Origin: a virus
Direction: 5' to 3' (one strand)
IMG/VR virus record: IMGVR_UViG_3300008110_007639
Location: 1 to 58,100 of that record
Length of the DNA stretch: 58,100 nucleotides
The notes under the pieces were generated by a model. It searched no databases and had not been told where the DNA came from. It saw only the letters and a program-made list of their open reading frames with translations. Positions 28,528 through 49,930 of the stretch are shown here, piece by piece (position 1 is the stretch's first letter; each line of letters begins with the position of its first letter). Made by a program: the position numbers and the translations under genes.

Positions 28528-30150
28528 ATGAGTACAACAAAAAATGTTTTTGGACAAGATCTTAAAGAACGTCTATTAGCTGGAGTAGAAAAATTAAACG
28601 CATCAGTATCTTCTACATTAGGACCAGGAGGACGTACTGTTTTGATTAGAGAGCAAAATGGAGAAGTAAAAATTACAAAAGATGGCGTAAGCGTTGCAAA
28701 GTCATTTAATAAATTAGAAGATGATATTGAGGATATTGGAGCACAATTAGTTAAACAGGTGTCTATTAAATCAGCTAATGAAGCAGGAGATGGTACAACA
28801 ACATCAACTATAATTGCTTCAACAATGGTAAAAGCTGGCTTAAAAGAAATTAGACAGGGGAATAATGCAGTTGAAGTTAAAAATGAAATTGATAATTTAA
28901 TTCAAGAAGTAATTCAAGAAGTTAAGAAAGTTTCGATTGATATTTCTACAGAAGATCAAATTAAACAAGTTGCAACAATCTCTGGAAATAATGATGAAGA
29001 AGTGGGTTACCTAATCTCAGAAGCAATACAAAAAGTTGGAAGAGATGGCGTAGTTACTATTGAAGAATCTAAAAGTGGTGAAACTAGTTTAGAAGTAGTT
29101 GAAGGTATGCAATTTAGTAGAGGTTATAAATCCCCGTACTTTGTTACGAATAATACTACTATGCAAGCGAACTTAGAAAATCCTTATATATTACTCTATG
29201 ATGGTAGAATTTCTACTGCACAAGAGCTACTTCCAGTTTTACAGATTGCTAATACTAATAATAGGTCGTTGCTTATTGTAGCAGAAGACTTTGGAGAAGA
29301 AGCGTTAGCTACTATGATTGTAAACAAAATGAGAGGAATAGTGCAAGTGTGTGCAGTTAAAGCTCCAGATTTTGGAGAAAGAAAGACTTTAATTTTAGAA
29401 GATATTGCAATTTTAACAGGAGCGCAAGTAATCTCAAAAGATAAAGGTCATAAACTAGATAAAATTAATGTTACTCAATTAAGTGCACAATTAGGATCTT
29501 GTAAATTAGTTAATGTATCAAAAGAAGAAACAACAATCGTAGACGGAAAAGGAGATGAAGCAGCTATTGAAAGTAGAGCAATTGAAATCAAAGATCAAAT
29601 TGATAGAGCGACATCATTCTTTGAGAAAGAAAAGTTACAAGAACGTTTAGGCAAAATGGTAGGCGGAGTAGCAATCATTAATGTAGGAGGAAACTCTGAT
29701 ATTGAAATAAAAGAGAAAAAAGATAGATTAGAAGACGCGCTATTTGCCACAAAAGCTGCATTAGCTGATGGTATTGTTCCTGGAGGCGGCAGTGTATTAT
29801 ATAGGCTATCTTTGAATTATGTAAATGAACACACCACTACTTCAACAATCGCAAAAGACATCGTAAGAGAGGCACTTCAGGCACCATTTAAAACGATCCT
29901 ATCAAACGCAGGTATTGAGGATTGGTGGAATAGAGTACCAGGCGAAGGTGAAGTATATGATGCAAAAAATCATAAAATTGTTAACGCTATAGAAGCTGGT
30001 ATTATAGATCCAACTAAAGTTGTAATTACTGCACTACGTAATGCAACATCAGTAGCAGGTACAATCCTCACAACAGAATCGGTTGTTTTTTCTGTAGAAG
30101 ATAAAAATGATAATAATAAAAATCCTATGAATGGAATGATGGGAATATAA
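28528..30150 (+). CDS. groEL: GroEL chaperonin
   Basis: 540 residues, full length for Cpn60. Nucleotide-site motifs are present: LGPGGR at 31-36, TKDGVSVAK at 50-58, GDGTTTST at 88-95, and [13 protein letters not shown] in the second equatorial half. The apical domain has the helix pattern typical of substrate binding ([21 protein letters not shown]). The C-terminal tail ends NPMNGMMGI and lacks the long GGM repeat of host GroEL. A catalytic cycle with the phage GroES is expected; it probably folds large virion proteins such as the capsid, sheath or giant hub. Sequence divergence from typical Bacteroidetes GroEL suggests long residence in phages. Confidence 0.95.
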
Positions 30151-33483: not shown

Positions 33484-33904
33484 ACAAAGAAGACTTGACA
33501 TGGTATATATGACTATGGCCATTGCAGTATCTTCATTATCGCATTGTAAAAGAAGTAAAGTAGGCGCAGTGATAGAGAAAGATGGTAATGTTATTAGTAT
33601 AGGTTACAATGGTACTCCATCTGGAATGGATAATTGTTGCGAAGAGTTACATGAAACTGGAATGAGCACAATTACTAAAAGTATAGTACTCCATGCTGAA
33701 ATGAATGCGGTGATAAAAGCTGCAAAGACAGGAAATGCTGTGCAAAATTCAACATTATATGTAACATTATCTCCATGCATTGAATGCTCGAAATATATAT
33801 TACAATCAGGAATAAAAAGAGTTGTATATTTAGATCAATATAGAGATACATCAGGAATAGATTTATTAAAAAAATTCATAAAAATTGAACAATATGTTAT
33901 TTGA
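33419..33904 (+). CDS. dCMP deaminase
   Basis: 161 residues from the ATG at 33419, though the catalytic domain begins near residue 24 (RRLDMVYMTMAIAVSS). The zinc site is complete: HAEMNA with the proton-shuttling Glu and the pair of Cys in PCIECS. It converts dCMP (or dCTP-derived dCMP) to dUMP. The start at 33419 overlaps dut by 65 bases; an in-frame ATG at 33500 would cut off the RRLD stretch that similar deaminases have, and a TTG at about 33460 is another choice. It ends 20 bases inside the next gene, so the three pyrimidine genes overlap in series. Confidence 0.9.
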   Translation: MNYQKKIQKEAPEDLEVQESSKQRRLDMVYMTMAIAVSSLSHCKRSKVGAVIEKDGNVISIGYNGTPSGMDNCCEELHETGMSTITKSIVLHAEMNAVIKAAKTGNAVQNSTLYVTLSPCIECSKYILQSGIKRVVYLDQYRDTSGIDLLKKFIKIEQYVI

Positions 33905-34553
33905 AAATGCAAATCATGCTTTCCAAGCTTTTTACGAGTATATAGAAGATCGCTATGATAAGCCAAACTTTGCTGGTACTAAAGCACTATTTAATATAAG
34001 CTTTGGAGTTGAGAATGTATTAGAGCGAGTTATAACAAATCCAAAAAGGAACTTTAAACAAGAGTATGCAGATTATGAGTGGGAATGGTATCTTAAAGGT
34101 GATAGAGATGCTAGCGAAATAGCTGAACGTGCAAAGATATGGAAAAATATGATGGTAGATGGTACTACAGAAGTAAATAGTAATTATGGATATTTTTGGA
34201 ATAAAAATAATCAACTAGAGCGTGTTATAGATCTTCTTAAAAAAGATCCAAATACTAGACGCGCAGTAGTTGTCCATTATGATTTAGATGAACTAGATAG
34301 ATACCAATATGATACGCCATGTAATATGGTTCTTAATTTCTATGTTAAAGATAATAAATTAGAATTAAGCGTATTTGCTAGAAGTATAGATCTTTGGTTT
34401 GGATTTTGTAATGACTTCTATACGTTTTCAAAGCTTATGGAATTAGTATCAGAAAAGACTGGTTATGAAGTAGGAGATATGAATTGGTTAATAACTAATT
34501 TACATATATACGAAAGACATTTTAATAAAGGCATCAAATGGAATGATAAATGA
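33885..34553 (+). CDS. Thymidylate-synthase homologue, predicted dCMP hydroxymethylase
   Basis: 222 residues (thymidylate synthase 264, T4 dCMP hydroxymethylase 246). The residues fall at the E. coli ThyA numbers: catalytic Cys146 in TPCN, Arg166, Ser167, Asp169 in RSIDLWFG, and His207/Tyr209 in HIYERH; Glu65 matches ThyA Glu58. The key position 177 is Asp (FCNDF) in place of the Asn that selects dUMP; Asp there is the mark of dCMP-specific members such as T4 gp42. His147 is also replaced by Asn. I therefore predict dCMP hydroxymethylation, with dCMP or dUMP methylation as alternatives. An ATG at 33894 would remove three residues. Confidence 0.75.
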   Translation: MNNMLFENANHAFQAFYEYIEDRYDKPNFAGTKALFNISFGVENVLERVITNPKRNFKQEYADYEWEWYLKGDRDASEIAERAKIWKNMMVDGTTEVNSNYGYFWNKNNQLERVIDLLKKDPNTRRAVVVHYDLDELDRYQYDTPCNMVLNFYVKDNKLELSVFARSIDLWFGFCNDFYTFSKLMELVSEKTGYEVGDMNWLITNLHIYERHFNKGIKWNDK

Positions 34554-36897: not shown

Positions 36898-38349
36898 ATG
36901 CAAAGTTTACCAGAAGGTTATATTGAAAAATCAAAAAGAAAGAAGATCTTACTAATGAGTGACGATCTTCGAATGACAAGTGGTATCGCTACAATGTCAA
37001 GAGAAATAGTTATAGGCACTTCTCACAGATTCAATTGGGTTAATTTAGGAGCTGCTATCAATCATCCAGATTACGGCAAAAGGTTTGATCTATCAGAAGA
37101 TACGAATAAGACCATGAATATCCCAGACTCTTCTGTGACGCTTTATCCATGCAATGGATATGGAACACCAGAGATTGTTAGACAGATACTAGAAATTGAA
37201 AAACCCGATGCGATCATGTTATTTACTGATCCTAGATATTGGGTGTGGTTATTTCAAATGGAAAATGAAATTAGAAAAAAAATACCTATACTATACTTAT
37301 CAATCTGGGATGACTATCCTGCTCCTTTATATAATAAGCCATATTATGAATCATGTGACTTATTAATGTCAATATCTAAACAAACTAAAAATATCCACGA
37401 ATTAGTTTTAGGAGAAAAAGCAAAAGACAAAGTTATTACTTACGTTCCTCATGGTATCAATGATAGACTATTCTACCCCATAAATGAATTTATGAAAGAG
37501 GAGTATGAAGGTTTACAATCATATAAAAAGAACTTATTCGGTGAAGATCAACCAGAGTTTGTAGTTTTCTATAATGCTAGAAATATTCGTAGAAAGTGTA
37601 CTTCTGATCTTATCGCAGCATATGCACTATTCTGTGATAGCATAGGAAAAGAGAAAGCTAAGAAGTGTACATTATTATTGCATACGCAAGCTATGGATGA
37701 GAATGGAACTAATCTTAATGCAGTAGTTGAATTATTATGTGATCCTGAATATCAAAAAGTAAAATTTGAACAAGGCGCGGTACCTACTAATATATTAAAT
37801 TACATGTATAATATCGCAGACGTTACTGCGTTAATATCATCTAATGAAGGTTGGGGATTATCATTAACAGAATCTATGATGGCTGGCACTATGATCATTG
37901 CTAATGTTACAGGCGGTATGCAAGATCAACTTAGATTTGAAGATGAAAAAGGAAATTGGGTAGATTTTACAAAAGATTTCCCTTCTAATCATTTTGGTAA
38001 ATATAGACAACATGGAGTATGGGCAATGCCAGTATTTCCTACTAATATGTCAATAGTTGGTTCTATACCTACGCCATACATATTCGATGATAGATGCGAT
38101 TTTAGAGATGTGGCTAATGCTATAGAGAATGTATATAACCTAACTCCAGAAGATAGAATACATAGAGGCATGAAAGGAAGAGACTGGGCAACATCAGATG
38201 AGTCTATGATGAGTAGTACAAATATGAGTAAAAATGTCATATCATCTATAGAAAAAACTTTTAGTGAATGGAAGCCAAAAGAGGACTTCGAATTCATAAA
38301 AATAGAAAAATTACCAAGAAAAAAAATAACACACAAATTAGTATATTAA
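36898..38349 (+). CDS. Family 4-type (GT-B) glycosyltransferase
   Basis: 483 residues. The N-terminal domain has KKILLMSDDLRMTSGIATMS and the C-terminal domain VVFYNARNIRRKCTSDLI, then a donor-binding stretch SSNEGWGLSLTESMMAGT. In this stretch the two Glu eight residues apart (E-x7-E) contact the nucleotide sugar. These are features of retaining GT4 enzymes. It moves a sugar from a nucleotide donor to an unknown acceptor. It is the first gene of the glycan island and is joined to the second transferase by a TAATATG junction, so they are probably made together. Confidence 0.87.
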   Translation: MQSLPEGYIEKSKRKKILLMSDDLRMTSGIATMSREIVIGTSHRFNWVNLGAAINHPDYGKRFDLSEDTNKTMNIPDSSVTLYPCNGYGTPEIVRQILEIEKPDAIMLFTDPRYWVWLFQMENEIRKKIPILYLSIWDDYPAPLYNKPYYESCDLLMSISKQTKNIHELVLGEKAKDKVITYVPHGINDRLFYPINEFMKEEYEGLQSYKKNLFGEDQPEFVVFYNARNIRRKCTSDLIAAYALFCDSIGKEKAKKCTLLLHTQAMDENGTNLNAVVELLCDPEYQKVKFEQGAVPTNILNYMYNIADVTALISSNEGWGLSLTESMMAGTMIIANVTGGMQDQLRFEDEKGNWVDFTKDFPSNHFGKYRQHGVWAMPVFPTNMSIVGSIPTPYIFDDRCDFRDVANAIENVYNLTPEDRIHRGMKGRDWATSDESMMSSTNMSKNVISSIEKTFSEWKPKEDFEFIKIEKLPRKKITHKLVY

Positions 38350-38350
38350 T

Positions 38351-39664
38351 ATGAAACCGTTATGCGTAATTAGTTGTCCTATCGATACCAATAGTGGATA
38401 TGGATCAAGAGCTAGAGATTTTGTAAAGGCTCTATATGAACTTAAAAAAGATGATTGGGATGTAAAAATACTTTCTCAAAGATGGGGAGCTACAAGTTGG
38501 GGATATATAGAAAATCATGCAAAAGAATGGGGATTTTTAAAAGATCTTATTTTACCAAATAATCAACTAACAGTACAACCAGATTATTGGTTTCAAATCA
38601 CAGTACCTAATGAATTCCAACCAATTGGAAAGTTAATGAATGTTGGTGTAACTGCGGGTATTGAGACTACTATAGCACATTCAACTTGGATAGACGGAGT
38701 TAATAGAATGAATTTAACTTTAGTATCTTCAGAGCATGCAAAGAATGTATTTAATAGTTCTCAATTCCAAGAAAAAGATAATCACGGTAATGTTAGAAGA
38801 GAGATTAAACTTGAAAAACCTATAGAAGTTCTTTTTGAAGGTGTAGATCTTAATAAGTATTTCCATATACCAGAAAAAGAATTAACAAATACCAAATTAG
38901 TTAAAACAATAAGTCAAGTTAAAGAAGATTTTTGTTATTTATTTGTTGGTCATTGGTTGCAAGGAGATTTTGGAGAAGATAGAAAGAATGTATCTGGAAC
39001 TATAAAAATATTTTTAGAGACTTTTAAAAATAAAAAAAATAAGCCTGCTTTAATATTAAAAACTACAAAAGTAGCTAATAGCATCATAGACAGAGAGGAC
39101 CTCTTAGAAATGATAGATAAAATAAGAAATACTGTCAACTCTAAAGATTTACCAAATATCTATCTATTACATGGTGAAATATCTGAAGAAGAGATTAACA
39201 ATCTATATAACCACCCAAAAGTAAAATCAATGATATACTTTGGTCATGGTGAAGGTTATGGCCGACCTCTATTAGAATTCTCAGTATGTAAAAAACCTAT
39301 CATAGCATCAAATTGGTCAGGACATATAGATTTCTTAAATGAAGAGTTTTGCGTAATGTTACCAGGGGAATTACAAAATATCCATAGATCAGCAGTCGCA
39401 GAAAATATGTTAATTCCAGAATCGCAATGGTTTAAAGTTAATACCAAAGCTGCACAAACGGCCTTAGAACAAGTTTATAACAACTATGATAAGTATAAGT
39501 CTGATTTAGCAAATAGACAAGCCTATTATGCAAAGACAAACTTTTCAATGGAAAAAATGAAAGATAAACTTTCAGAGTATTTATCGACTTTTCCAAAACC
39601 TGTTCAATTACAGTTACCTAAATTGAAAAAAATAGAATTACCAAAACTTACAAAAGTAGAATAA
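38351..39664 (+). CDS. GT-B glycosyltransferase with Leu-Pro-Lys tail repeat
   Basis: 437 residues. NSGYGSRARDFVKAL at the N-terminus and GHGEGYGRPLLEFSVCKKP in the C-terminal domain, with E-x7-type donor contacts, indicate a GT4-like enzyme. After the catalytic domain it ends with two near-copies of the string PKL (LQLPKLKKIELPKLTKVE), a tail that might bind a partner or a membrane. It is paired with the transferase before it. Acceptor and donor are unknown. Confidence 0.83.
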   Translation: MKPLCVISCPIDTNSGYGSRARDFVKALYELKKDDWDVKILSQRWGATSWGYIENHAKEWGFLKDLILPNNQLTVQPDYWFQITVPNEFQPIGKLMNVGVTAGIETTIAHSTWIDGVNRMNLTLVSSEHAKNVFNSSQFQEKDNHGNVRREIKLEKPIEVLFEGVDLNKYFHIPEKELTNTKLVKTISQVKEDFCYLFVGHWLQGDFGEDRKNVSGTIKIFLETFKNKKNKPALILKTTKVANSIIDREDLLEMIDKIRNTVNSKDLPNIYLLHGEISEEEINNLYNHPKVKSMIYFGHGEGYGRPLLEFSVCKKPIIASNWSGHIDFLNEEFCVMLPGELQNIHRSAVAENMLIPESQWFKVNTKAAQTALEQVYNNYDKYKSDLANRQAYYAKTNFSMEKMKDKLSEYLSTFPKPVQLQLPKLKKIELPKLTKVE

Positions 39665-39665
39665 C

Positions 39666-39923
39666 ATGACACACGAACAATTTGTATATTGGCTAAAAGG
39701 TTATCTAGCAGCACAAACAGATAGCCAAATGAAAATAGATATTGAAAAGGCAATAAAAGAAGTAGACAAGGTAGACAGTACTTGTGCACCATCTCCTATA
39801 GGAGTTAATCCATGGACTAGTCCATATTCTCCGACTGTCCCACCTGGACAGCCTTTTTGGTACACTACTACAGATTCAAATGGAACTACTACTACTACTA
39901 CAAAGGAGGTGTTACATGGATAA
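39666..39923 (+). CDS. Small phage protein with helical N-terminus
   Basis: 85 residues. It begins MTHEQFVYWLKGYLAAQTD, an N-terminus found in several small phage proteins, continues with a charged helix, and ends in a Pro/Thr-rich stretch (SPYSPTVPPGQP, then TTTTTT). It follows the second transferase by one base (TAACATG). Its last codons, KEVLHG, encode the strong Shine-Dalgarno of the next gene, so the ribosome may be passed from one to the next. Function unknown. Confidence 0.65.
   Translation: MTHEQFVYWLKGYLAAQTDSQMKIDIEKAIKEVDKVDSTCAPSPIGVNPWTSPYSPTVPPGQPFWYTTTDSNGTTTTTTKEVLHG
39902..39910 (+). promoter_or_regulatory. Unusually strong Shine-Dalgarno (AAAGGAGGT) fixing the start at 39916
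   Basis: AAAGGAGGT ends five bases before ATG 39916. Nothing like it was noticed upstream of the other genes of the window, most of which have only A-rich leaders. It supports 39916 rather than the longer open frame beginning at 39880. Confidence 0.8.
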
Positions 39924-40362
39924 AGTAAAAGACAACCTAATAGATTGTCCTCTATGCGGAGAAAAAGGTGCTTGCTACTCTATAGCTATGAATGAATTTC
40001 ACAATGCATATATGTGTTTAGGTTGTGGACATCAATCAAACGATTTAGCAAGAGAAGGGGAATTTGATTTTGAAACATTCGAAGCAGAGATGCCAGAACT
40101 ATATAAAGATCTTAAGAAAATAGATTCTGAAGGAAGAGTGTGGTACCCGACCGTAGTTAATATACTAGATAGAGGCACTATTTTTATGAATGGAACTTGT
40201 AAAGAAGATGCTCAATGGTGTGCAATTAAAAATATACCATTAACAAAACAAGAAAAGAAGAAACCAGTATTTAAAAACAAATCTCATAAATCAGATCCAA
40301 GTAGTATGCAATATTTTGGAACAGATTATGTAAGCGCATTAGAATATTTAGATTTAATATAA
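39916..40362 (+). CDS. Zinc-ribbon phage protein
   Basis: 148 residues from the ATG at 39916, chosen because of the Shine-Dalgarno at 39902 and because the twelve residues upstream in the longer frame (Leu/Arg runs) look non-coding. Two Cys pairs, CPLCGE near residue 11 and CLGCGHQSND near residue 34, make a zinc ribbon. The middle reads RVWYPTVVNILDRGTIFMNG, with CKEDAQWCA after it. Relatives occur in T4-like phages without known function. It overlaps the upstream gene by eight bases. Confidence 0.72.
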   Translation: MDKVKDNLIDCPLCGEKGACYSIAMNEFHNAYMCLGCGHQSNDLAREGEFDFETFEAEMPELYKDLKKIDSEGRVWYPTVVNILDRGTIFMNGTCKEDAQWCAIKNIPLTKQEKKKPVFKNKSHKSDPSSMQYFGTDYVSALEYLDLI

Positions 40363-40371
40363 ATCATCAAA

Positions 40372-41007
40372 ATGATAACTATATCTTACGCTATAACTTG
40401 CTGTAACGAATACAAAGAATTCAAAAGACTTATTAAACAGTTGTTACCTTGTATAAAAGAAAATGATGAGATTGTAATTCAACAAGATGAATGTACAGAT
40501 AGCGATGCATTATCGATAAAGAAGTATATTGAACAGCTTATTGATTCTGATAGTAGAGTAAGATATATAACATATAAGCTAAATAAAAATTTCGCAGACT
40601 TTAAAAATAATTTAAAAAGTAATTGTAAAAAAGATTATATTTACTTCATAGATGCTGACGAAACTTTATCTGAGAATATGTTGTACTATCTACATCAAGT
40701 ATTAGATAGCAATCCAGTTGATCTATTCATGGTACCAAGAGCAAATACGGTTAAAGGACTAACACAAGAGCATATAAAAGTATGGAATTGGAGAGTCGAT
40801 CCTGATGGACTAATTAACTGGCCAGATTATCAAAGTAGGATAGTTAGAAATAAAGTTAATATAAAATGGGAAGGAAAAGTGCATGAACGAATAGTCGGTT
40901 ATTCTCATATAGCAGAGTTTCCTACAGATAGTTTAGATTGGTGTTTACATCATAATAAAGACATAGCTAAACAAGAGCAACAAAATAATTTTTACAGTAA
41001 AATATAA
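40372..41007 (+). CDS. Family 2-type (GT-A) glycosyltransferase
   Basis: 211 residues. ISYAITCCNEYKEFKRLI begins the nucleotide-binding fold; IYFIDADETLSENML has the DxD-like metal motif; the end reads WEGKVHERIVGY, as in the WaaE/KdtX-type core transferases. It is short for the family but complete. It probably adds one sugar to a lipopolysaccharide-like or other acceptor. Confidence 0.82.
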   Translation: MITISYAITCCNEYKEFKRLIKQLLPCIKENDEIVIQQDECTDSDALSIKKYIEQLIDSDSRVRYITYKLNKNFADFKNNLKSNCKKDYIYFIDADETLSENMLYYLHQVLDSNPVDLFMVPRANTVKGLTQEHIKVWNWRVDPDGLINWPDYQSRIVRNKVNIKWEGKVHERIVGYSHIAEFPTDSLDWCLHHNKDIAKQEQQNNFYSKI

Positions 41008-41010
41008 AGC

Positions 41011-41259
41011 ATGAAACAAAATACTTATCAGGATTACGAAAATGTATATCCAAATTCAGAAGAAAATGATTGTTTATTTAATTGGATATTTCATTATAAT
41101 CCAATAAGTAAAGTTTGGAATGCTATTCCAAGAGATAAATACAATGATTATTGGAATAATATAAATTGCGATGATGTTATAAAGAGTACACAAATTAGCA
41201 CTCTTGTGGATTTGATAATTAAGATGAATAACTCTAATTTAGATCTAAATAGTTTATAA
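41011..41259 (+). CDS. Small protein in the glycan cluster
   Basis: 82 residues, rich in Asn, Tyr and Trp (WIFHYNPISKVWNAIPRDKYNDYWNN). The C-terminal part STQISTLVDLIIKMN is a short amphipathic helix. Homologues seem to occur as small companions in phage glycan loci, but I cannot assign a function. It lies three bases after the preceding transferase and seven before the dehydrase. Confidence 0.55.
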   Translation: MKQNTYQDYENVYPNSEENDCLFNWIFHYNPISKVWNAIPRDKYNDYWNNINCDDVIKSTQISTLVDLIIKMNNSNLDLNSL

Positions 41260-41266
41260 ATAAAAA

Positions 41267-42595
41267 ATGGTTACGGAAAAAGAAATAGTATCACTAGTTG
41301 ATCAATATATAAAAGATAAACACAGCAAAAAATCATGGAAAGCTGGAGAAGATTGGGTTCAATATGCAGGTCCATATTTTGATTCAGCAGAGTATATAGT
41401 AGCTGTTAAAACTCTATTAAGCGAGTGGCTAGTATTAGGTGCTGAAGCTACAAAGTTTGAAAGAAAATTTCCTAAAAAACTTGGTAAAAATTTTGGTTTA
41501 CTAACAAATAGTGGATCTAGCGCAAATCTATTGATGATGTTAGCAATGACTTCAAAAAGATATGCTAATTTACCTAAAGGCACCAAAGTAATTACGCCTA
41601 TAGCTGGATTTCCAACAACTATAAATCCAATATTGCAAGTAGGATTTAAGCCAATATTTGTAGACATAGAATTAGATACACTTAATTTAGATTTAGATCA
41701 AGTAGAGCAAGCATGCATAGAAAATCCAGATGTAAAAATAATAACTTTTGCGCATGTTCTTGGTAATCCTCCGAATATGAAAAGGTTAATGGAGATTGTA
41801 GAAAAATACAAATTAGTATTACTTGAAGATTGTTGTGATGCACTTGGTTCAACTTATGAAGGGAAACCTTTAGGATCTTTCGGTAAAATGGCAAGTTGTT
41901 CTTTCTATCCAGCGCATCATATAACTATGGGAGAAGGCGGATTTGTAGCAGTAGACGATCCTATACTAGAAAGAGTTATAAGAAGTTTTAGAGAATGGGG
42001 AAGAGGTTGTTTTTGTATTGGTAAACAGAATCTATTAGAAAATGGAGCATGTGGTTGCAGATTTAATAATTGGGTGCCAAGTATACCAGACGAATTATTT
42101 GATCATAAGTATGTATATGAAGAAATAGGATATAATCTAAAACCCATAGAATTACAGGCCTCTATTGGATTAGTGCAAATGGAAAAATTAGAGGAAATAG
42201 GTATAAAAAGAAGAAATAACTATAAAAACCTATATAATGTTTTTTCTAAATATAATGAATATTTCCACTTACATGAAGCTCAATTAGGCGCAGATGTAGA
42301 TTGGTTTGCTTTTCCAATTACTATAAAAGATGGTGCTCCATTTAAAAGATCAGATATTTGTAAATTTTTTGAATCTAATAAAATACAAACAAGACCGTAT
42401 TTTGCTGGAAATATAATGTTGCAACCAGCGTATGCGGGTTTGATGGATCCAAAAGAAGTAATAGAAAAATATCCAATCGCAAGAAAGGTTACAACCGATA
42501 CATTCTTTCTAGGCACATCTCCAGTAATAGATAAAGAAAAGATTGATTATATAGAAGTTGTATTAAACAAATTTATTGATGGAAAAACAAAATAG
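41267..42595 (+). CDS. rfbH: RfbH/E1-like nucleotide-sugar 3-dehydrase
   Basis: 442 residues, DegT/DnrJ fold but not an aminotransferase. The cofactor site reads SFYPAHHITMGEGG with His217 in place of the PLP-binding Lys, the hallmark of E1 (CDP-4-keto-6-deoxyglucose 3-dehydrase). After it, EWGRGCFCIGKQNLLENG and then ACGC give the four Cys of the [2Fe-2S] cluster of this family, though spacing differs slightly. E1 removes the C3 hydroxyl of a 4-keto-6-deoxy sugar with PMP, and needs a reductase (E3) for electrons. No E3 gene is in the window. It is probably fed by the dehydratase at 44964. Confidence 0.88.
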   Translation: MVTEKEIVSLVDQYIKDKHSKKSWKAGEDWVQYAGPYFDSAEYIVAVKTLLSEWLVLGAEATKFERKFPKKLGKNFGLLTNSGSSANLLMMLAMTSKRYANLPKGTKVITPIAGFPTTINPILQVGFKPIFVDIELDTLNLDLDQVEQACIENPDVKIITFAHVLGNPPNMKRLMEIVEKYKLVLLEDCCDALGSTYEGKPLGSFGKMASCSFYPAHHITMGEGGFVAVDDPILERVIRSFREWGRGCFCIGKQNLLENGACGCRFNNWVPSIPDELFDHKYVYEEIGYNLKPIELQASIGLVQMEKLEEIGIKRRNNYKNLYNVFSKYNEYFHLHEAQLGADVDWFAFPITIKDGAPFKRSDICKFFESNKIQTRPYFAGNIMLQPAYAGLMDPKEVIEKYPIARKVTTDTFFLGTSPVIDKEKIDYIEVVLNKFIDGKTK

Positions 42596-44222
42596 GTTTG
42601 TAATAATTACGCCTTCATATAATAACGAAGATTGGGTAGAATATAATTTAGCCAGTATAATAAATCAAACATATGACAATTTTAAAGTGTTATATATAGA
42701 TGATGCGTCGATTGATGGCACGTATGAAAAAGTAAAATCAATAATAGAGCATGATAGTCGATTTACGTTAATAAGAAATGATGAAAATAAAGGAGCAGCT
42801 TATAATTATGTTGAATATATAGATTTTGCGTCTGATAGCGATGATGATATATTAGTGCATTTAGATGGTGACGATTGGTTTTTTGATGAGAACACTCTTT
42901 CGAACTTAAATAAACTATATAATGACTATGATTATTGGATGACTTATGGTAGATTCGTATGTTATGATGGATCTGATAGACTTATAGAATCTACAGTATA
43001 TGGTGTACCTCATGAAAATTTTGTACATGATCATAAACTCTATAGGAGAGATATGTTTAAAGCGAGTCATCTAAGAACATACCGTAAATTTTTATTTAAA
43101 AGTATAAATAAGATAGATTTAAAATCGCTTATTACAGGCGATTATTATTGGCATGCTATAGATGTCGCTTGGGGTTGTATCTATCAAGAGATGTGTCCAA
43201 AAAATAAAATAGGCGTACCTGATTTCTTCACATGCGTTTATAATATGACACCAAAAAACCAAGTAAGATCTCAAGAAAGACAATCAATAGAGAATCATAA
43301 GTTTGAAGTTGAAATTAGAAATAGAAAAAAATATAAAGAAGGACTATCAGGAGATAAACTTCCATTAGTAAATGTATTTGGAGAATATAGAGAAAGAAAT
43401 ACGATTCCAACATTATTTTCTTATGTGTACAATCAATTAAATGGAGAATTTGATGTTACCTTAATTCAAGATACAGAAATAATCAAGTATATTAATGGAG
43501 AAATTCCTATTAAACGAGGAAAAATAGTTGCAGATATACACGAACCTAGGCACTTATTAGAACATAATAGCGTATATGAAATTGTATTTAAAAATTATGA
43601 AAAATTTGATCGTATACTAACCTATGATCCTCAATTACTAGAGTTACCTAATGCTGTTTTTAGAAATGGAGGATATGAGGTTGTCTTAAATAAGAATGTG
43701 CACTCCTTAGAATATCCAGTTTTATCAGATGAAGGTTTATATAATATTTACGAAAAAACAAAATTAGTATCTTTTATAACTTCTAATAAAACTATTACTG
43801 ATGGCCATAGATTTAGAGTTGCGTGTGTTAATTCTTTAAAAGAACTAGGTTCTACAATAGATATTAGAGGCGTTGGGTATCATGAAGTAACAGGAAAAAT
43901 AGAAGCATTAAAAGATTATAGTTTTTCAATTGCAATTGAGAATGGCATTTCAGATAATTATTTTACAGAAAAAATATTAGATTGCTTTTTAACTGGAACT
44001 ATCCCAATATATAGAGGTTGCACAAATATTGGTAATTTTTTTAATACAAACGGTATTATTACATTTAATACAATAGATGAATTAATTAACATAGTTAATA
44101 ATCTAAATGAAGAAACCTATGAAAGTATGTTAATATATGTTAAACATAATTTTGAAGTAGCCTTAAAGTATGCTTATAATAACGATAAACTATATAACAT
44201 ATATTTAAAAGATTTAATATGA
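42579..44222 (+). CDS. Two-domain glycosyltransferase: GT2 plus GT10-like (fucosyltransferase)
   Basis: 547 residues from ATG 42579 (an upstream TTG at 42576 adds one). The N-terminal domain, about 1-270, is GT2: ITPSYNNEDWVEYNLASIIN and DDDILVHLDGDDWF with the DxD motif. The C-terminal domain (about 370-530) has KDYSFSIAIENGISDNYFTE followed by KILDCFLTGTIPIYRG, the conserved donor motif of GT10 alpha-1,3-fucosyltransferases. The two activities could add two sugars in turn. A middle region (about 270-370) links them. It overlaps the end of rfbH by 17 bases. Confidence 0.82.
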   Translation: MEKQNRFVIITPSYNNEDWVEYNLASIINQTYDNFKVLYIDDASIDGTYEKVKSIIEHDSRFTLIRNDENKGAAYNYVEYIDFASDSDDDILVHLDGDDWFFDENTLSNLNKLYNDYDYWMTYGRFVCYDGSDRLIESTVYGVPHENFVHDHKLYRRDMFKASHLRTYRKFLFKSINKIDLKSLITGDYYWHAIDVAWGCIYQEMCPKNKIGVPDFFTCVYNMTPKNQVRSQERQSIENHKFEVEIRNRKKYKEGLSGDKLPLVNVFGEYRERNTIPTLFSYVYNQLNGEFDVTLIQDTEIIKYINGEIPIKRGKIVADIHEPRHLLEHNSVYEIVFKNYEKFDRILTYDPQLLELPNAVFRNGGYEVVLNKNVHSLEYPVLSDEGLYNIYEKTKLVSFITSNKTITDGHRFRVACVNSLKELGSTIDIRGVGYHEVTGKIEALKDYSFSIAIENGISDNYFTEKILDCFLTGTIPIYRGCTNIGNFFNTNGIITFNTIDELINIVNNLNEETYESMLIYVKHNFEVALKYAYNNDKLYNIYLKDLI

Positions 44223-44947
44223 ATAAAGTTGTAGTAACTGGAGCTGATCAATCAATGTGGAATGTTTTAGATTTAACATTAAATTCAAAATTAAAATATT
44301 GTAAACAACATAGTTATGACTTAATTATAAAACGACATTTTAATGAAATAGAACAATGTGGATTTACTAAAAAAAATATAGGCACATCTTATATAGGATT
44401 TGTTAGAGCTTGGGAGTGTTTTACATTATTACAACAATATGATGTTGTTATGTGGTTAGATGGAGATTCAATAATAACAAATCCAAATATTACTATAGAT
44501 GATATGATAGATAGTAAGCATACTTTTTATAGTTCATATGATTGGTTATGCTATGAAGGAGGTCCAGCTGGAAAAAATGGATTTAGCACAGGGAATTTTA
44601 TTATTCGTCGTACAGAAGATGTAAATGATTTATTCAATAAATTTTATGAAACTAGTCAATATTATTTACATAATATTATGGCTGAACAAATTACACTAAA
44701 TATAATACATCAACATAACGATATAGTAAATTGTTTTAAAATTTTAGAGCATAAATACTTAAATAGCGTTCCTCTTTGTTTAACAAAAACTAAAACGTGG
44801 TTAAATGATCCAGTTCGAACTGGACCTAATGCACAAAATTTAATAATAAATGAATGGACTAAAGAAAGTTTTATTGCTCATTTAACTGGAATTACTAATT
44901 ATGAAAGAGAAGAGGTATTAAAAACCCATTTTAATCAATACATATAA
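44219..44947 (+). CDS. GT34/GT8-like (GT-A) glycosyltransferase
   Basis: 242 residues. VVVTGADQSMWNVLDLTL opens the fold; VVMWLDGDSIITNP is the DxD metal motif (LDGD) of GT-A enzymes, followed by GFSTGNFIIRRTED and a long C-terminal part with His-containing NIIHQHND and LTGITNYE. The arrangement resembles GT34 (alpha-galactosyl/mannosyl) and GT8 enzymes, with some family ambiguity. It joins the fusion transferase by ATGA. Confidence 0.7.
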   Translation: MNKVVVTGADQSMWNVLDLTLNSKLKYCKQHSYDLIIKRHFNEIEQCGFTKKNIGTSYIGFVRAWECFTLLQQYDVVMWLDGDSIITNPNITIDDMIDSKHTFYSSYDWLCYEGGPAGKNGFSTGNFIIRRTEDVNDLFNKFYETSQYYLHNIMAEQITLNIIHQHNDIVNCFKILEHKYLNSVPLCLTKTKTWLNDPVRTGPNAQNLIINEWTKESFIAHLTGITNYEREEVLKTHFNQYI

Positions 44948-44963
44948 ATTAATATTTTATAAA

Positions 44964-45920
44964 ATGATAAAAGTAGTATATATTACTGGATGTTTGGGAT
45001 TTATAGGATCTTACATAACTAGAATATGTTTAGAAAAAGGTTGGTATGTGAAAGGCGTAGATAAAATAACATATGCGGCTAATAAATATCTATTAGAGGA
45101 GTTTAAAAAATATAAAAACTTTTCTTTTGTACACTGTGATATTAATGATCTTACGTTTTTATATGATTGTGATTATGTTATTAATACAGCAGCAGAAACT
45201 CATGTTGGAAATAGTATTGTAAGTAGTACTGAGTTTGTAAAATCTAATATAGATGGTGTACATAATCTTTTAGAGCTAATAAAGAATTATAGAGCTGAGA
45301 ATTCAAAAAAACCAACATTGATACATTTTAGTACAGATGAAGTTTATGGAGATATAGGATTAGGAGAGCATATAGAAATAGATATGCTTAAGCCATCAAA
45401 TCCATATTCAGCTACAAAAGCAGCTGCAGATATGCTAATAATGGCTTGGGGTAGAACACATAATATACCGTATATAATACTAAGACCTACAAATAATTAT
45501 GGAATAGGGCAATATGTTGAAAAATTAATACCTAAAGCTGTTAAATTTTTGAATTTAGGGAGAAGAATACCTTTACATAATAATGGAGAACCTTATAGAA
45601 CTTGGCTACACGCAGAAGATACAGCTCACGCAGTTATAACAATTATTGATAAGGGAACTATTGGAGAAATTTATAATATATCTGGAGGATTTGAGCAACA
45701 AAACATAGACACTATTAAGCAAGTAATTGAATTTTACGGAATACCAGAGCATGAGTCATATTTAAACTACATAGACTTTTCATATAGTAGACCAGGTCAA
45801 GATATACGATATGCATTAAATGATAATAAGCTTAGATCTTTAGGATGGACACCAAAAAAGAAATTTAACATTGAAATAAAAAATATAGTAAATTACTACA
45901 ATAACAAATTTATATGGTAA
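44964..45920 (+). CDS. RmlB-like nucleotide-sugar 4,6-dehydratase
   Basis: 318 residues, extended SDR. GCLGFIGS is the NAD-binding loop; STDEVYGD holds the Asp-Glu active acids that remove the 6-hydroxyl; NPYSATKAAAD supplies the YxxxK catalytic pair; then LRPTNNYGIGQYVEKLIPKA and YRTWLHAEDTAHAV follow, as in dTDP-glucose 4,6-dehydratase. It would make a 4-keto-6-deoxy sugar from an NDP-glucose. Canonical RmlB works on dTDP-glucose and RfbH on CDP-sugars, so the actual base is uncertain. It overlaps the thiamine enzyme gene after it by seven bases. Confidence 0.85.
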   Translation: MIKVVYITGCLGFIGSYITRICLEKGWYVKGVDKITYAANKYLLEEFKKYKNFSFVHCDINDLTFLYDCDYVINTAAETHVGNSIVSSTEFVKSNIDGVHNLLELIKNYRAENSKKPTLIHFSTDEVYGDIGLGEHIEIDMLKPSNPYSATKAAADMLIMAWGRTHNIPYIILRPTNNYGIGQYVEKLIPKAVKFLNLGRRIPLHNNGEPYRTWLHAEDTAHAVITIIDKGTIGEIYNISGGFEQQNIDTIKQVIEFYGIPEHESYLNYIDFSYSRPGQDIRYALNDNKLRSLGWTPKKKFNIEIKNIVNYYNNKFIW

Positions 45921-46564
45921 CAATAGAACAATTAATTGAATTTGAAAATGAAATAGCTAGTCTATTTAATAATAAAAAAATAAAAGCTCCAATACATTTA
46001 TATAGTGGAAATGAGGAAAAGATAGTTAGCGTATTTAATAGTGTAGATATTACTAATGATTGGGTATGTTGTACTTGGAGAAATCACTATCAAGCTTTAT
46101 TAAAAGGTATACCTGCAGATCTTCTAAAGAATGAAATCATTAAGGGCAAATCCATGATTCAAACACTCCCAGAATATAAATTTATATGTAGCTCTATTGT
46201 AGGAGGAATTCCATCAATAGCTACTGGAATAGCTTTGGGAAATAAATTAAGAGGCAGTACCGGCCATGTTTGGTGTTGGATAGGTGATATGTCTGCTGAG
46301 ACAGGTAATTTTCATGAAGCATATAAATATTCTAGAAACTACAATCTACCAATAACGTTCGTAGTAGAATCAAATAAATTATCTGTATTAACTCCAACTG
46401 ATGATGTATGGAAAAGATCTACACCCTATTTTATAGATGATAAAGATCGATTTATAAATGATATAAAAAATAATTGCATATATAAACAATCAAATTTAGT
46501 TTATTATGAATATGAAAATAAAAAATATCCGCATGCTGGAGCTGGTCAACGAGTTCAATTTTAA
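45914..46564 (+). CDS. Thiamine-diphosphate enzyme, E1-alpha / transketolase-N-like (PP domain)
   Basis: 216 residues. The stretch WRNHYQALLKGIPADLL, then SSIVGGIPSIATGIALGNKL, then WIGDMSAETGNFHEAYKYSR and NLPITFVVESN follow the E1-alpha/transketolase PP domain. The ThDP motif, usually GDG(x~26)NN, appears as GDM and SN, so the metal ligands Asp and Asn remain. It pairs with the next gene to rebuild a full ThDP active site. In a sugar cluster this suggests a two-carbon transfer to a keto-sugar (as proposed for AviB1/AviB2 in avilamycin), not central metabolism. Confidence 0.75.
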   Translation: MVTIEQLIEFENEIASLFNNKKIKAPIHLYSGNEEKIVSVFNSVDITNDWVCCTWRNHYQALLKGIPADLLKNEIIKGKSMIQTLPEYKFICSSIVGGIPSIATGIALGNKLRGSTGHVWCWIGDMSAETGNFHEAYKYSRNYNLPITFVVESNKLSVLTPTDDVWKRSTPYFIDDKDRFINDIKNNCIYKQSNLVYYEYENKKYPHAGAGQRVQF

Positions 46565-46576
46565 ATTATACAAATT

Positions 46577-47113
46577 ATGAAATATTTTGAAGAGTTAAAA
46601 AAAGCGATGACTATGTTATCGTTAAATGATAAGGTTGTATTCATAGGACAAGCAGTTGAATATGCTGGAACCGGATTATATGATACATTAGAACATATTA
46701 GTCCTAATAAAAAAATGGAATTTCCAGTAGCTGAGTATTTACAATGCGGTGTAGTAAACGGATTAGCTTTAAATGGATATATACCAGTTTCTATAATACC
46801 TAGATGGAATTTTTTATTAATGGGTACAGATCAAATAATCAATCATTTAGATAAATTTTCACTAATGTCAGATGGTAGATGCACTCCAAAAGCAATTATA
46901 AGAGTAGCAGTAGGTAGTGAAAGACCAGTAGATCCACAAGATCAACATAAGGGTAATTTTTCTGATGCGTTTAGATCTATGTGTAAAACAATACAAGTTA
47001 TTGAATTACATGAACCAAAAGATATTGTTCCAAGTTACGAATATGCTTTAAATAGAACAGATGGAAAAAGTACTATTATTGTTGAGTTCGGTGATTATTC
47101 AAAAGAAAAATAA
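46577..47113 (+). CDS. Thiamine-diphosphate enzyme, E1-beta / transketolase-Pyr-like
   Basis: 178 residues. FIGQAVEYAGTGLYDTL, MEFPVAEYLQCGVVNGLALNG with the conserved Glu that activates thiamine, and MGTDQIINHLDKFSLMS match the Pyr domain of E1-beta. RVAVGSERPVDPQDQHKGNF resembles the R..G....GPQHS region. The usual C-terminal third domain of E1-beta and transketolase (about 120 residues) is missing, so this is a minimal subunit. Twelve bases separate it from the PP-domain gene. With that partner it probably forms a small heterotetramer. Confidence 0.75.
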   Translation: MKYFEELKKAMTMLSLNDKVVFIGQAVEYAGTGLYDTLEHISPNKKMEFPVAEYLQCGVVNGLALNGYIPVSIIPRWNFLLMGTDQIINHLDKFSLMSDGRCTPKAIIRVAVGSERPVDPQDQHKGNFSDAFRSMCKTIQVIELHEPKDIVPSYEYALNRTDGKSTIIVEFGDYSKEK

Positions 47114-47887
47114 ATGCGAATACTAATAACCGGATCAAGAGGTTATATAGGCTATAGCTTATATTTAGCGTTAAAAGACAAATATGAAATAGTGGCTCAT
47201 ACACGAGATCTATTTGATCTAACATCGTCTAAATCAACATTAGATTATTTTAAAGGCCAATATTTTGATATTATATTACATTGTGCAATAGTTGGTGGAA
47301 GTAGACTTAAGAAAGATGATTGGAATGTAGTTGATGATAATTTAACAATGTACTATAATCTATTACAATGTAAAGAAAATTATGGAATGTTTATTAATCT
47401 TGCATCAGGCGCAGAAATCAATAGTCCAGAATCTCCATATGGTATAAGTAAAAGAATAATAGCTAATTCTATTTTGCAAAAAGATGGTTTTTATAATATA
47501 AGAATATTCGGTGTATTTAATGAGTATGAGTTAGATACAAGATTTATAAGAGCAAATTTACTAAGATACATTGGTAAACAATCTATGAATATTCAAAATA
47601 AAAAAATGACTTTTTTCTATATGAAAGACTTAATTAAAGTCATTGAATATTATATAGAAAATGACCAAAGTTTATTACTTAAGGATGTTGATTGTGCTTA
47701 TTCAAGATCTATTAGTCTATTAGAGATAGCAAATTTAATAAATAATTTAAGTGATTATAAAGTACATATAAATGTTGAAAATGCTAAAATAGATGACTAT
47801 ATATCAAATAAACTTATACCTTACAATATAGATTATATAGGATTAGAACAAGGTATATTAGAGGTATATAAAAAAATGACATTATGA
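47114..47887 (+). CDS. SDR nucleotide-sugar reductase/epimerase
   Basis: 257 residues, short extended SDR. GSRGYIGYS is the cofactor loop and SPYGISKRIIA gives the YxxxK pair; INLASGAE carries the Ser. The closest types are GDP-fucose synthase and RmlD-like reductases that reduce a 4-keto group at the end of deoxysugar pathways. It is likely to finish the sugar made by the dehydratase, dehydrase and thiamine enzyme. The next transferase starts in the ATGA junction at its stop. Confidence 0.75.
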   Translation: MRILITGSRGYIGYSLYLALKDKYEIVAHTRDLFDLTSSKSTLDYFKGQYFDIILHCAIVGGSRLKKDDWNVVDDNLTMYYNLLQCKENYGMFINLASGAEINSPESPYGISKRIIANSILQKDGFYNIRIFGVFNEYELDTRFIRANLLRYIGKQSMNIQNKKMTFFYMKDLIKVIEYYIENDQSLLLKDVDCAYSRSISLLEIANLINNLSDYKVHINVENAKIDDYISNKLIPYNIDYIGLEQGILEVYKKMTL

Positions 47888-48765
47888 AGATATTAATTGG
47901 TTGCTTAAATGTAAATGGTTTAGGAGGAAGTGAATTATATCACTATGAATTAGTTAGAGAATTAAATTATTTAGGCCATGAAGTTACGTTATTTACTTTA
48001 CGTAATATTGATAATGCAGATCAAACTAGATTAAAGTTAAGTGGTATTAAACAATTGGATTTAACAAATATAGATACTAATGAAAAATATGATATTATTG
48101 TGGCAAGTCAACCACAAGTTAATTCATATATGCTTAGTAATTTTAAAAATACACCACTCGTAAGTATAATACATTCAGAAATAAGATCAGAAGATCCAAT
48201 TATCGACTCTAATATTTTTCACTATATCGCTATAAGAGAGCCTATAAAGAAAATGCTAATAGATCAATATAATATACCTGAGAGTAAAGTATCTTTGATA
48301 TATAATCCAATAGATCAAAGCAGATTTAATTTAGAATATATAAATAAACTAGATAGATATTCTGGAATATTTGTAGGAGAAGTATTAGATCCTATTCGAT
48401 TTAGTGCAATATCTCACTTAGCTAATGAATGTATTAAAAATGATTGGGATTTATATATAATGAGTGAAAGTAGATTTCAATTTAATCATCCTAATATAAA
48501 GTATCTAGATAAGCGATGGAATACTGAAACTATTGTTAAGCAGATGCACTTTACAGGCGGTATTCTACTAGGTCGTACGACTCTTGAAGGATGGTGTTGT
48601 GGAATTCCAGGTTATATGTATATAATAGACATTCATGGAAATATTCTTAATATAGAAGTAGATCAACCTGCGAATATTATAGAGCTATGCGACAGTAAGA
48701 AGATTGCTATTTCACATATTGAATTATATAATAAATTATTAACAAGTATTAAGAATGAAAAATAA
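47884..48765 (+). CDS. GT4-type glycosyltransferase
   Basis: 293 residues. ILIGCLNVNGLGGSELYHYELVR opens a GT-B fold with the G-G-S acceptor loop; the end has GGILLGRTTLEGWCCGIPGYMY, a donor motif with E-x-type contacts though weaker than usual. It is short for GT4 (usually 350-400), and the C-terminal domain is abbreviated. Activity is probable but not certain. It overlaps the last transferase gene by 11 bases. Confidence 0.75.
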   Translation: MKILIGCLNVNGLGGSELYHYELVRELNYLGHEVTLFTLRNIDNADQTRLKLSGIKQLDLTNIDTNEKYDIIVASQPQVNSYMLSNFKNTPLVSIIHSEIRSEDPIIDSNIFHYIAIREPIKKMLIDQYNIPESKVSLIYNPIDQSRFNLEYINKLDRYSGIFVGEVLDPIRFSAISHLANECIKNDWDLYIMSESRFQFNHPNIKYLDKRWNTETIVKQMHFTGGILLGRTTLEGWCCGIPGYMYIIDIHGNILNIEVDQPANIIELCDSKKIAISHIELYNKLLTSIKNEK

Positions 48766-49930
48766 TATTTCATTATTAGTTGGATTAAAAAATAATCTAG
48801 ACTATACTAAACATTTTTATAAAACAACAAGAGCACTTTATCCAAAGATTGAGATTTGTTTTGTTAGTTATGCATCAACTGATGGTACACATGAGTGGTT
48901 AGATTCACTAAATGACGCTTATTTAAAATATTATTATTCTAAAGAGTATGGAACATTTTCAGATACATTTAATAAAGCTGCAGAGATTTCAACAAAAGAG
49001 TATGTTGTTTATTTACATAATGATATAGTATTAGCTCCTAATTTTATAGAGAATCTAATAAAACACATAAGTGTAAATAAAGTTATATCGTATACAACTG
49101 TTGAACCACCGATCTTCTCAGACCATGAAAGACCTGGTAAGATTATTAGAGATTTTGGAATTGATCTTGAAACCTTCAATCTTAGTAGTTTTTACGAATT
49201 TGCAAAAGAAGCTCAAAAATCATATGAAAATAAATATGAGCAAGGCATAACATTTTTTATGTGTTTATCTAGAAATCTATTACTAAGCATTAAAGGAATG
49301 GATAATTTATTTAATCCTATGTTTTGTGAAGATGATGATCTAATAATGAGATTAAAACTTTTAGGATTAGAATGTATAACTATATTAGATGCAATTTGCT
49401 ATCATTTCGTTAGTAAAACATCTAGATTTTCAGAAGAATATATTAATACTACAAAGCTAATAGAAGTTAAATCAAATCGTAATTATATTAGAAAATGGGG
49501 AAATAGATCATCAACAACTAAATATAATATAGCGTTTGTTGTATCTAACTGCACTTTACAAGCTTTACAAATACTTGAACCGTGGTGCGATAGAATATAC
49601 ATAGATGATACAATGCAAGTTATTACTATAGCATACATAGAAAATGAACAAAGCAATACAAAGTTTGATTTAAGTAAAAGAGTGTTATTAAAAGGATTTA
49701 ATGATCCTATTAGTGAAAATAATATAGTAATTGAATTTGATGCAAATAAACTAACAAATGATAGTTTTAGAATAATACAACAATTAGCTGACATAATCAT
49801 AGAGTCTGGAGATATTGGAGAATTCGAATTAGATATATTTAAGATAACTATTAAAAGTTTAGACACTTACGAAAAAAATCTAATTAGATTAGACGACGAA
49901 TATTATACAAGTAAATTCATAAAAATTTAG
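48755..49930 (+). CDS. GT2-type glycosyltransferase with a C-terminal extension
   Basis: 391 residues. ISLLVGLKNNLDYTKHFYKT, then STKEYVVYLHNDIVLAPNFIE with the metal-binding HND (instead of DxD), and MFCEDDDLIMRLKLLG are GT2 features. Residues about 265-391 are an extra strand-rich domain of unknown role. It ends the glycan island; a late-type element follows inside its 3' end at 49932. Confidence 0.78.
   Translation: MKNNISLLVGLKNNLDYTKHFYKTTRALYPKIEICFVSYASTDGTHEWLDSLNDAYLKYYYSKEYGTFSDTFNKAAEISTKEYVVYLHNDIVLAPNFIENLIKHISVNKVISYTTVEPPIFSDHERPGKIIRDFGIDLETFNLSSFYEFAKEAQKSYENKYEQGITFFMCLSRNLLLSIKGMDNLFNPMFCEDDDLIMRLKLLGLECITILDAICYHFVSKTSRFSEEYINTTKLIEVKSNRNYIRKWGNRSSTTKYNIAFVVSNCTLQALQILEPWCDRIYIDDTMQVITIAYIENEQSNTKFDLSKRVLLKGFNDPISENNIVIEFDANKLTNDSFRIIQQLADIIIESGDIGEFELDIFKITIKSLDTYEKNLIRLDDEYYTSKFIKI

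Follow-up and report, generated by a model that had tools for sequence, protein, structure and literature searches.

A viral glycan island proposed to make a C4-branched 3,6-dideoxy octose, and the exchange of its thiamine-diphosphate enzyme among related phage loci

Genes of the glycan island

The window analysed here is a 58.1-kb virus record (IMGVR_UViG_3300008110_007639), and all positions are numbered within it. According to the list of open reading frames (ORFs) and the family searches, positions 36898-49930 are a + strand gene block without gaps, a glycan island (Table 1) whose sugar cassette probably makes a C4-branched 3,6-dideoxy octose of the yersiniose type, as a nucleotide sugar that would be transferred in the infected cytoplasm. 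The initial annotation of this DNA had placed here an RmlB-like dehydratase, an RfbH-type dehydrase, two thiamine-diphosphate (ThDP) subunits, a short-chain dehydrogenase/reductase (SDR) and seven glycosyltransferase genes. This content was confirmed, since the named genes are on the + strand at the positions of Table 1 and match the expected families. The transferase count also stands, with the refinement that the gene starting at 42576 or 42579 encodes a bidomain protein, which raises the number of transferase domains to eight. In this protein (42576-44222) a GT2 domain is joined to a fucosyltransferase-type GT10 domain.

An identical island, with 99-100% protein identity, is present in a 179,597-base record (IMGVR_UViG_3300008262_000042, loci L004/L116), called the sibling below. 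Homologues of the 39880 gene in relatives are placed between two GT-B genes and the GT2 gene.

Table 1. Features of the glycan island, with positions in the window
Feature	Position	Strand	Remarks
GT-B glycosyltransferase	36898..38349	+	Glycos_transf_1; phrog_2170; core gene, 60.9% to phage immuto
Second GT-B glycosyltransferase	38351..39664	+	phrog_2170; Glycos_transf_1 under curated cut-off
Small protein	39666..39923	+	no family match in searches
Small Cys-rich protein	39880..40362	+	zinc-ribbon-like by eye; no family match in searches
GT2 (GT-A) glycosyltransferase	40372..41007	+	Glycos_transf_2
Small protein	41011..41259	+	no family match in searches
RfbH/E1-type NDP-4-keto-6-deoxyhexose 3-dehydrase	41267..42595	+	NF011936; His217; [2Fe-2S] cysteines
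Bidomain glycosyltransferase, GT2 + GT10	42576..44222	+	Glycos_transf_2; start TTG 42576 or ATG 42579
GT34-like glycosyltransferase	44219..44947	+	Glyco_transf_34
RmlB-like NDP-glucose 4,6-dehydratase	44964..45920	+	PF16363/TIGR01181; STDEVYGDI and YSATK motifs
Mini PDH-E1-alpha-like ThDP subunit, 216 aa	45914..46564	+	E1_dh; AlphaFold model
Mini PDH-E1-beta-like ThDP subunit, 178 aa	46577..47113	+	Transket_pyr only
SDR ketoreductase	47114..47887	+	model fold; proposed branch-ketone reductase
GT-B-type glycosyltransferase	47884..48765	+	sole match Glyco_transf_4
GT2-type glycosyltransferase	48755..49930	+	Glycos_transf_2
NDP, nucleoside diphosphate; PDH, pyruvate dehydrogenase; aa, amino acids.

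The 4,6-dehydratase and the 3-dehydrase

The product of 41267 scores above the equivalog cut-off for RfbH (NF011936, 458.6 bits against 423). Its alignment to 3bcx places His217 where DegT enzymes have the pyridoxal-phosphate lysine, and Cys190, Cys248, Cys250 and Cys262 at all four [2Fe-2S] ligand positions of Yersinia E1. The 44964 protein keeps the catalytic TDE and YxxxK motifs, and its closest solved relatives are deoxythymidine diphosphate (dTDP)-glucose 4,6-dehydratases. Its score with TIGR01181 is 292.8 bits, under the equivalog cut-off of 365.1; the substrate nucleotide is probably dTDP, because this score is far above that of the cytidine diphosphate (CDP) model (61.2). The 3,6-dideoxy part of the pathway, formed by the RmlB-like and RfbH enzymes, is well supported.

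The absence of a nucleotidyltransferase and of an E3 reductase, already noted for the window, extends to the sibling. Neither record showed an NTP_transferase, Fer2 or NAD_binding_1 domain, and all three were detected in control genomes, a Bacteroides among them. The cytidylyl- or thymidylyltransferase that might have been encoded elsewhere in the phage genome was sought in the sibling and not found. Therefore, activation and electrons would be supplied by the host.

The ThDP pair and the SDR

The split ThDP subunits are present and can be described more precisely as PDH-E1-alpha-like and E1-beta-like, with no transketolase C domain. For the AlphaFold model of 45914 (pLDDT, predicted local distance difference test, of 90), the 50 best solved structures were E1-alpha chains of PDH and branched-chain 2-oxo acid dehydrogenases. 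The 46577 protein carries a Pyr domain only and is not a full-length beta subunit. Together they appear to be a minimal PDH-E1-like heterodimer (mini-E1). The Mg-binding Asp of the GD motif is conserved in 72 viral alpha subunits, as is the Asn located 29 residues on. No YerE-like single-chain protein of the acetolactate-synthase type was found among the cassette ORFs. As for a pyruvate dehydrogenase complex, the subunits are shortened and the ORFs examined included no E2-like gene next to them, with no search aimed at lipoyl domains.

Adjoining PDH-E1-like alpha and beta subunits in a deoxysugar locus are the arrangement of the alpha-keto acid dehydrogenase 2 type, represented by AviB1/AviB2, Pau11/Pau12 and KbDH-alpha/beta, which are also heterodimeric. 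For these sugar-branching enzymes, the proposed reaction is the addition of acetyl to a C4 ketone, and AviB1/B2 and Pau11/12 would in this way install C4-acetyl groups in antibiotic sugars. The phage pair differs from them in its size (216 + 178 aa without a transketolase C domain, versus 325 + 345 aa in Pau11/12), and in being coupled to a 3-dehydrase in phages, whereas the others belong to actinomycete antibiotic clusters. With fewer than 400 residues in total, it would be unusually small.

Regarding the SDR, the fold search with its model (pLDDT 96) gave GDP-fucose synthase and GDP-4-keto-heptose C4 reductases as the closest structures, and a sequence search against solved structures gave no match. 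This protein is proposed as a branch-ketone reductase. An analogue of such a step is found in paulomycin synthesis, where the aldo-keto reductase Pau7 reduces the acetyl branch (PMC4753412). The initial annotation had left the ThDP pair and the SDR without a role; comparison suggests that they are a C-branching carboligase and the ketoreductase that follows it, and with this the point of the pathway.

Exchange of ThDP classes among viral loci

All the viral cassette loci are metagenomic. The fetched loci reach 10 kb either side, and a gene absent from a locus may exist elsewhere in the genome. With the E1-alpha query, the contiguous orders RmlB-E1a-E1b-SDR and RfbH-E1a-E1b-SDR-RmlB recurred in many viral contigs. 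The expectation that related phages carry the same gene set was thus borne out in dozens of distinct viral contigs, so the association is not due to chance. In contigs selected by RfbH, the E1 pair was often missing, with other ThDP enzymes in its place. These were a split mini-transketolase (209 + 159 aa) in L103 and an acetolactate-synthase-like protein of 583-600 aa in L090 and L134. The best solved match of this last protein is JanthE (8rph), which is YerE-like and joins 2-oxo acids with ketones (PMC12188165). Since YerE-like and mini-transketolase (TK) genes fill the same slot, we rejected the view that carbon branching is missing wherever the E1 pair is.

To avoid selection for ThDP genes, the nearest 80 viral loci were fetched by RmlB alone, and the frequencies describe that neighbourhood. 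A ThDP enzyme was present in 78 of them (53 YerE-like, 15 E1 pair, 9 TK pair and 1 with two classes); in the other two, the sequence continues for no more than 2.3 and 3.9 kb past RmlB. Since there are near-copies among the loci, counts were also made on 60 RmlB clusters at 90%, which gave 40 YerE-like, 12 E1 pair, 5 TK pair, 1 with two classes and 2 with none. When the ThDP class was mapped by parsimony on a tree built from 135 RmlB proteins, at least 36 changes of class were required, and well-supported branches make 10 gains or losses of the E1 label unavoidable. The ThDP gene is directly upstream of the SDR gene in most E1 and TK loci. A review of ThDP enzymes that make tertiary alcohols names three superfamilies with sugar-branching members (PMC12247030): YerE-like decarboxylases for lipopolysaccharides and, for secondary metabolites, transketolases and alpha-keto-acid-dehydrogenase-2 pairs. 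The classes swapped in the viral slot are these same three superfamilies.

The 3-dehydrase is also a frequent component, since 72 of the 80 RmlB loci encode a DegT protein with His for Lys: 56 are [2Fe-2S] RfbH proteins and 16 belong to an SFYASH class without CxC, whose gene is often directly before RmlB. The apparent lack of RfbH in 25 RmlB loci is mostly explained by this second His-type class. A DegT class with the SFYASHVITAGG motif, His for Lys and no Fe-S CxC (L220 8838-10001, L222, L225, L244 and others), in many cases encoded immediately upstream of RmlB, seems to be an additional type of phage 3-dehydrase that is free of iron.

Cellular and cyanophage relatives of the mini-E1

One scan of cellular genomes gave 27 loci with a mini-E1 alpha subunit (37-49% identity). 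In 9 of them a ColD-like dehydrase with an SFYYAHH-type motif (His for Lys) comes after the pair, in one more such a dehydrase is upstream, and other loci present a GMD-like dehydratase plus heptose-phosphate genes. Therefore, the pair tends to travel with enzymes that make 4-keto sugars and with different kinds of 3-dehydrase. The "transketolase central region" proteins of the cyanophages P-TIM68 and S-SM2 (phrog_34187) have the same two mini domains, with about 35% identity, and are also found in viral sugar clusters. Unlike the window pair, they are one fused chain located among heptose and zinc-alcohol-dehydrogenase genes without RfbH. Fused cyanophage alpha and beta domains with heptose gene surroundings were observed at L002 12049-13194 and L003 11983-13191.

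Proposed pathway

From the families, active-site residues, gene set, ThDP interchange and absence of helper and membrane proteins, we infer the substrates, product, SDR reaction and acceptor as follows. RmlA or another nucleotidyltransferase of the host would supply NDP-glucose (probably with dTDP), from which the RmlB-like 44964 would make NDP-4-keto-6-deoxyglucose. The C3 hydroxyl would be removed by the RfbH-type 41267, which would take its electrons from a donor of the host. The 45914/46577 heterodimer could then decarboxylate pyruvate or another 2-oxo acid and join the two-carbon unit to the ketone at C4. In the 4-C-acetyl sugar so formed, the SDR would reduce the branch ketone. Finally, the phage glycosyltransferases would transfer the sugar to an acceptor that is accessible without membrane proteins.

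The closest known system is the yersiniose A pathway of Yersinia pseudotuberculosis O:6, where the Ddh enzymes and YerE are followed by a ketoreduction. Common to both are a 4,6-dehydratase, an RfbH/E1-type 3-dehydrase, a ThDP carboligase and a reductase in a glycan locus. The window differs in having a two-subunit PDH-E1-like enzyme for YerE and an RmlB-like enzyme for the CDP-glucose-type dehydratase, and in encoding neither a nucleotidyltransferase nor an E3; in related phage loci, a YerE-like enzyme occupies the slot equivalent to that of YerE. The substrate of YerE is CDP-4-keto-3,6-dideoxyglucose, the kind of compound produced by a 4,6-dehydratase and RfbH. This and the presence of three branching classes in one slot make a 4-C-branched octose the simplest account.

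The initial proposal of a special deoxysugar pathway with its transferases is thus supported, with a branched octose favoured over a plain 3,6-dideoxyhexose. RmlB, RfbH and a protein with the NDP-4-ketosugar-reductase fold are all that an abequose- or paratose-type sugar needs, and all are present; the SDR would in that case reduce C4 and the ThDP pair would act elsewhere. However, this is rather improbable considering that nearly all the loci have a ThDP enzyme, that it mostly adjoins the SDR in E1 and TK cases, and that it is replaced among three classes, since a bystander would be lost. It is also hardly likely that the mini-E1 pair belongs to sugar-phosphate chemistry (transketolase- or heptose-like supply), or serves as a 2-oxo-acid decarboxylase that feeds an aldehyde elsewhere, instead of acting on an NDP-4-keto sugar. 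Relatives in cells and cyanophages are near phosphoheptose isomerase and heptose-kinase genes, but these were not found in the window cassette, and in viruses the pair goes together with RmlB and His-type dehydrases, as the cellular pair often does.

Several observations weigh against the branched octose. Some cellular genomes and cyanophages have the mini-E1 among heptose genes with no RfbH, the third residue of the GDG motif is Met in the viral alpha subunits (GDM, an unusual variant of the ThDP motif), and we know of no mini-E1 pair with a known enzyme activity. The E1 pair coexists with a YerE-like or TK enzyme in 8 of the 135 representatives, which is not explained by a simple interchange in one slot, and in these loci the pair may have another role. 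The E1 pair is found with a YerE-like enzyme in L018, L020, L021, L033, L036, L040 and L141, and with a mini-TK in L011 and L158. Moreover, the RmlB score under the equivalog cut-off makes the nucleotide of 44964 less certain, and neither the window nor 12 related viral records gave a PF00175 or PF00111 match for an E3 reductase.

Bacterial O-antigens and antibiotics are known to contain branched octoses such as yersiniose, and a limited literature search turned up no phage described as making them. We tentatively suggest, at somewhat less than even confidence, that aquatic phages keep a fixed core (4,6-dehydratase, His-type 3-dehydrase and ketoreductase) and exchange the carboligase among three ThDP classes, one of them a minimal PDH-E1 heterodimer. 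If true, this modular factory for C-branched sugars would give related phages different branched sugars to show on virions or the host surface, as an arms-race device new in viruses. The swapped slot would offer a naturally occurring test of ThDP enzymes acting on ketones, and such enzymes are sought as biocatalysts for tertiary alcohols. A function could also be suggested for phage proteins annotated as "transketolase central region" or unknown (phrog_34187). In addition, what phage glycan islands decorate becomes directly testable.

Acceptor of the sugar

No convincing transmembrane segment was found in the island proteins, and no polyprenyl-phosphate transferase, flippase or polymerase was found in the island. 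Consequently, it is neither a complete O-antigen assembly locus nor a self-sufficient locus for surface polysaccharide, and the acceptor should be reached from the cytoplasm. It could be virion proteins, host lipid-linked intermediates or DNA.

Two acceptors compatible with the branched sugar deserve attention. Modification of the host surface polysaccharide, changing the receptor or blocking superinfection, is a possibility of some weight, if below even. O-antigens are known to contain sugars of the yersiniose type (PMC4753412), and several GT2/GT4 families of the island resemble those of polysaccharide clusters; nevertheless, with the membrane functions named above missing from the island, host lipid-linked intermediates would be needed. 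Placement on hydroxymethylated phage DNA, also raised initially, is unlikely. In its favour, the soluble transferases adjoin 33885-34553, which encodes a thymidylate-synthase (TS)-family protein with Asp in the alignment where TS has Asn177. This Asp is a trait of dCMP hydroxymethylases. However, homologues of 33885 with this feature appear only in the sibling and in L084/L138 among the fetched loci, so the gene is not tied to the widespread cassette, and the family searches of the window proteins matched no DNA glucosyltransferase family. The short TS-family gene is directly after those of dUTPase (33046) and dCMP deaminase (33419), and its features suggest modified cytosine in the phage DNA.

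Phage identity and site of the cassette

The nearest isolate is Flavobacterium phage immuto (tail sheath 49.8%, GroEL 52% and first transferase at 36898 60.9%), a cultivated phage that grows on Flavobacterium sp. LMO8, and the host is probably a Flavobacterium-like bacterium. An origin among relatives of the T4-like cyanophages, which were mentioned initially as carriers of LPS-type genes, was rejected considering the PolA-type polymerase and the GroEL and tail sheath nearest to immuto, as is the core transferase.

At the same genomic site, vB_FspM_immuto presents the order DUF3310, PD-(D/E)XK, GT, GT, small protein, GT2 and sugar cassette (L201, NC_055915.1 38000-78000), with the same flanks and another cassette. 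This carries a PseC/WecE-type aminotransferase gene and a methyltransferase, versus RfbH-RmlB-E1-SDR in the window. Gene comparison therefore suggests a site of sugar-cassette exchange in the immuto phage group, where the left part (36898-41007) is phage core common to relatives with other sugar cassettes and about 41267-49930 the variable cassette. A literature search on immuto with glycosyltransferase found nothing. Outside the island, the phage GroEL gene is at 28528-30150, and 31565-32452 matches the PHROG "threonine dehydratase" (6.9e-22).

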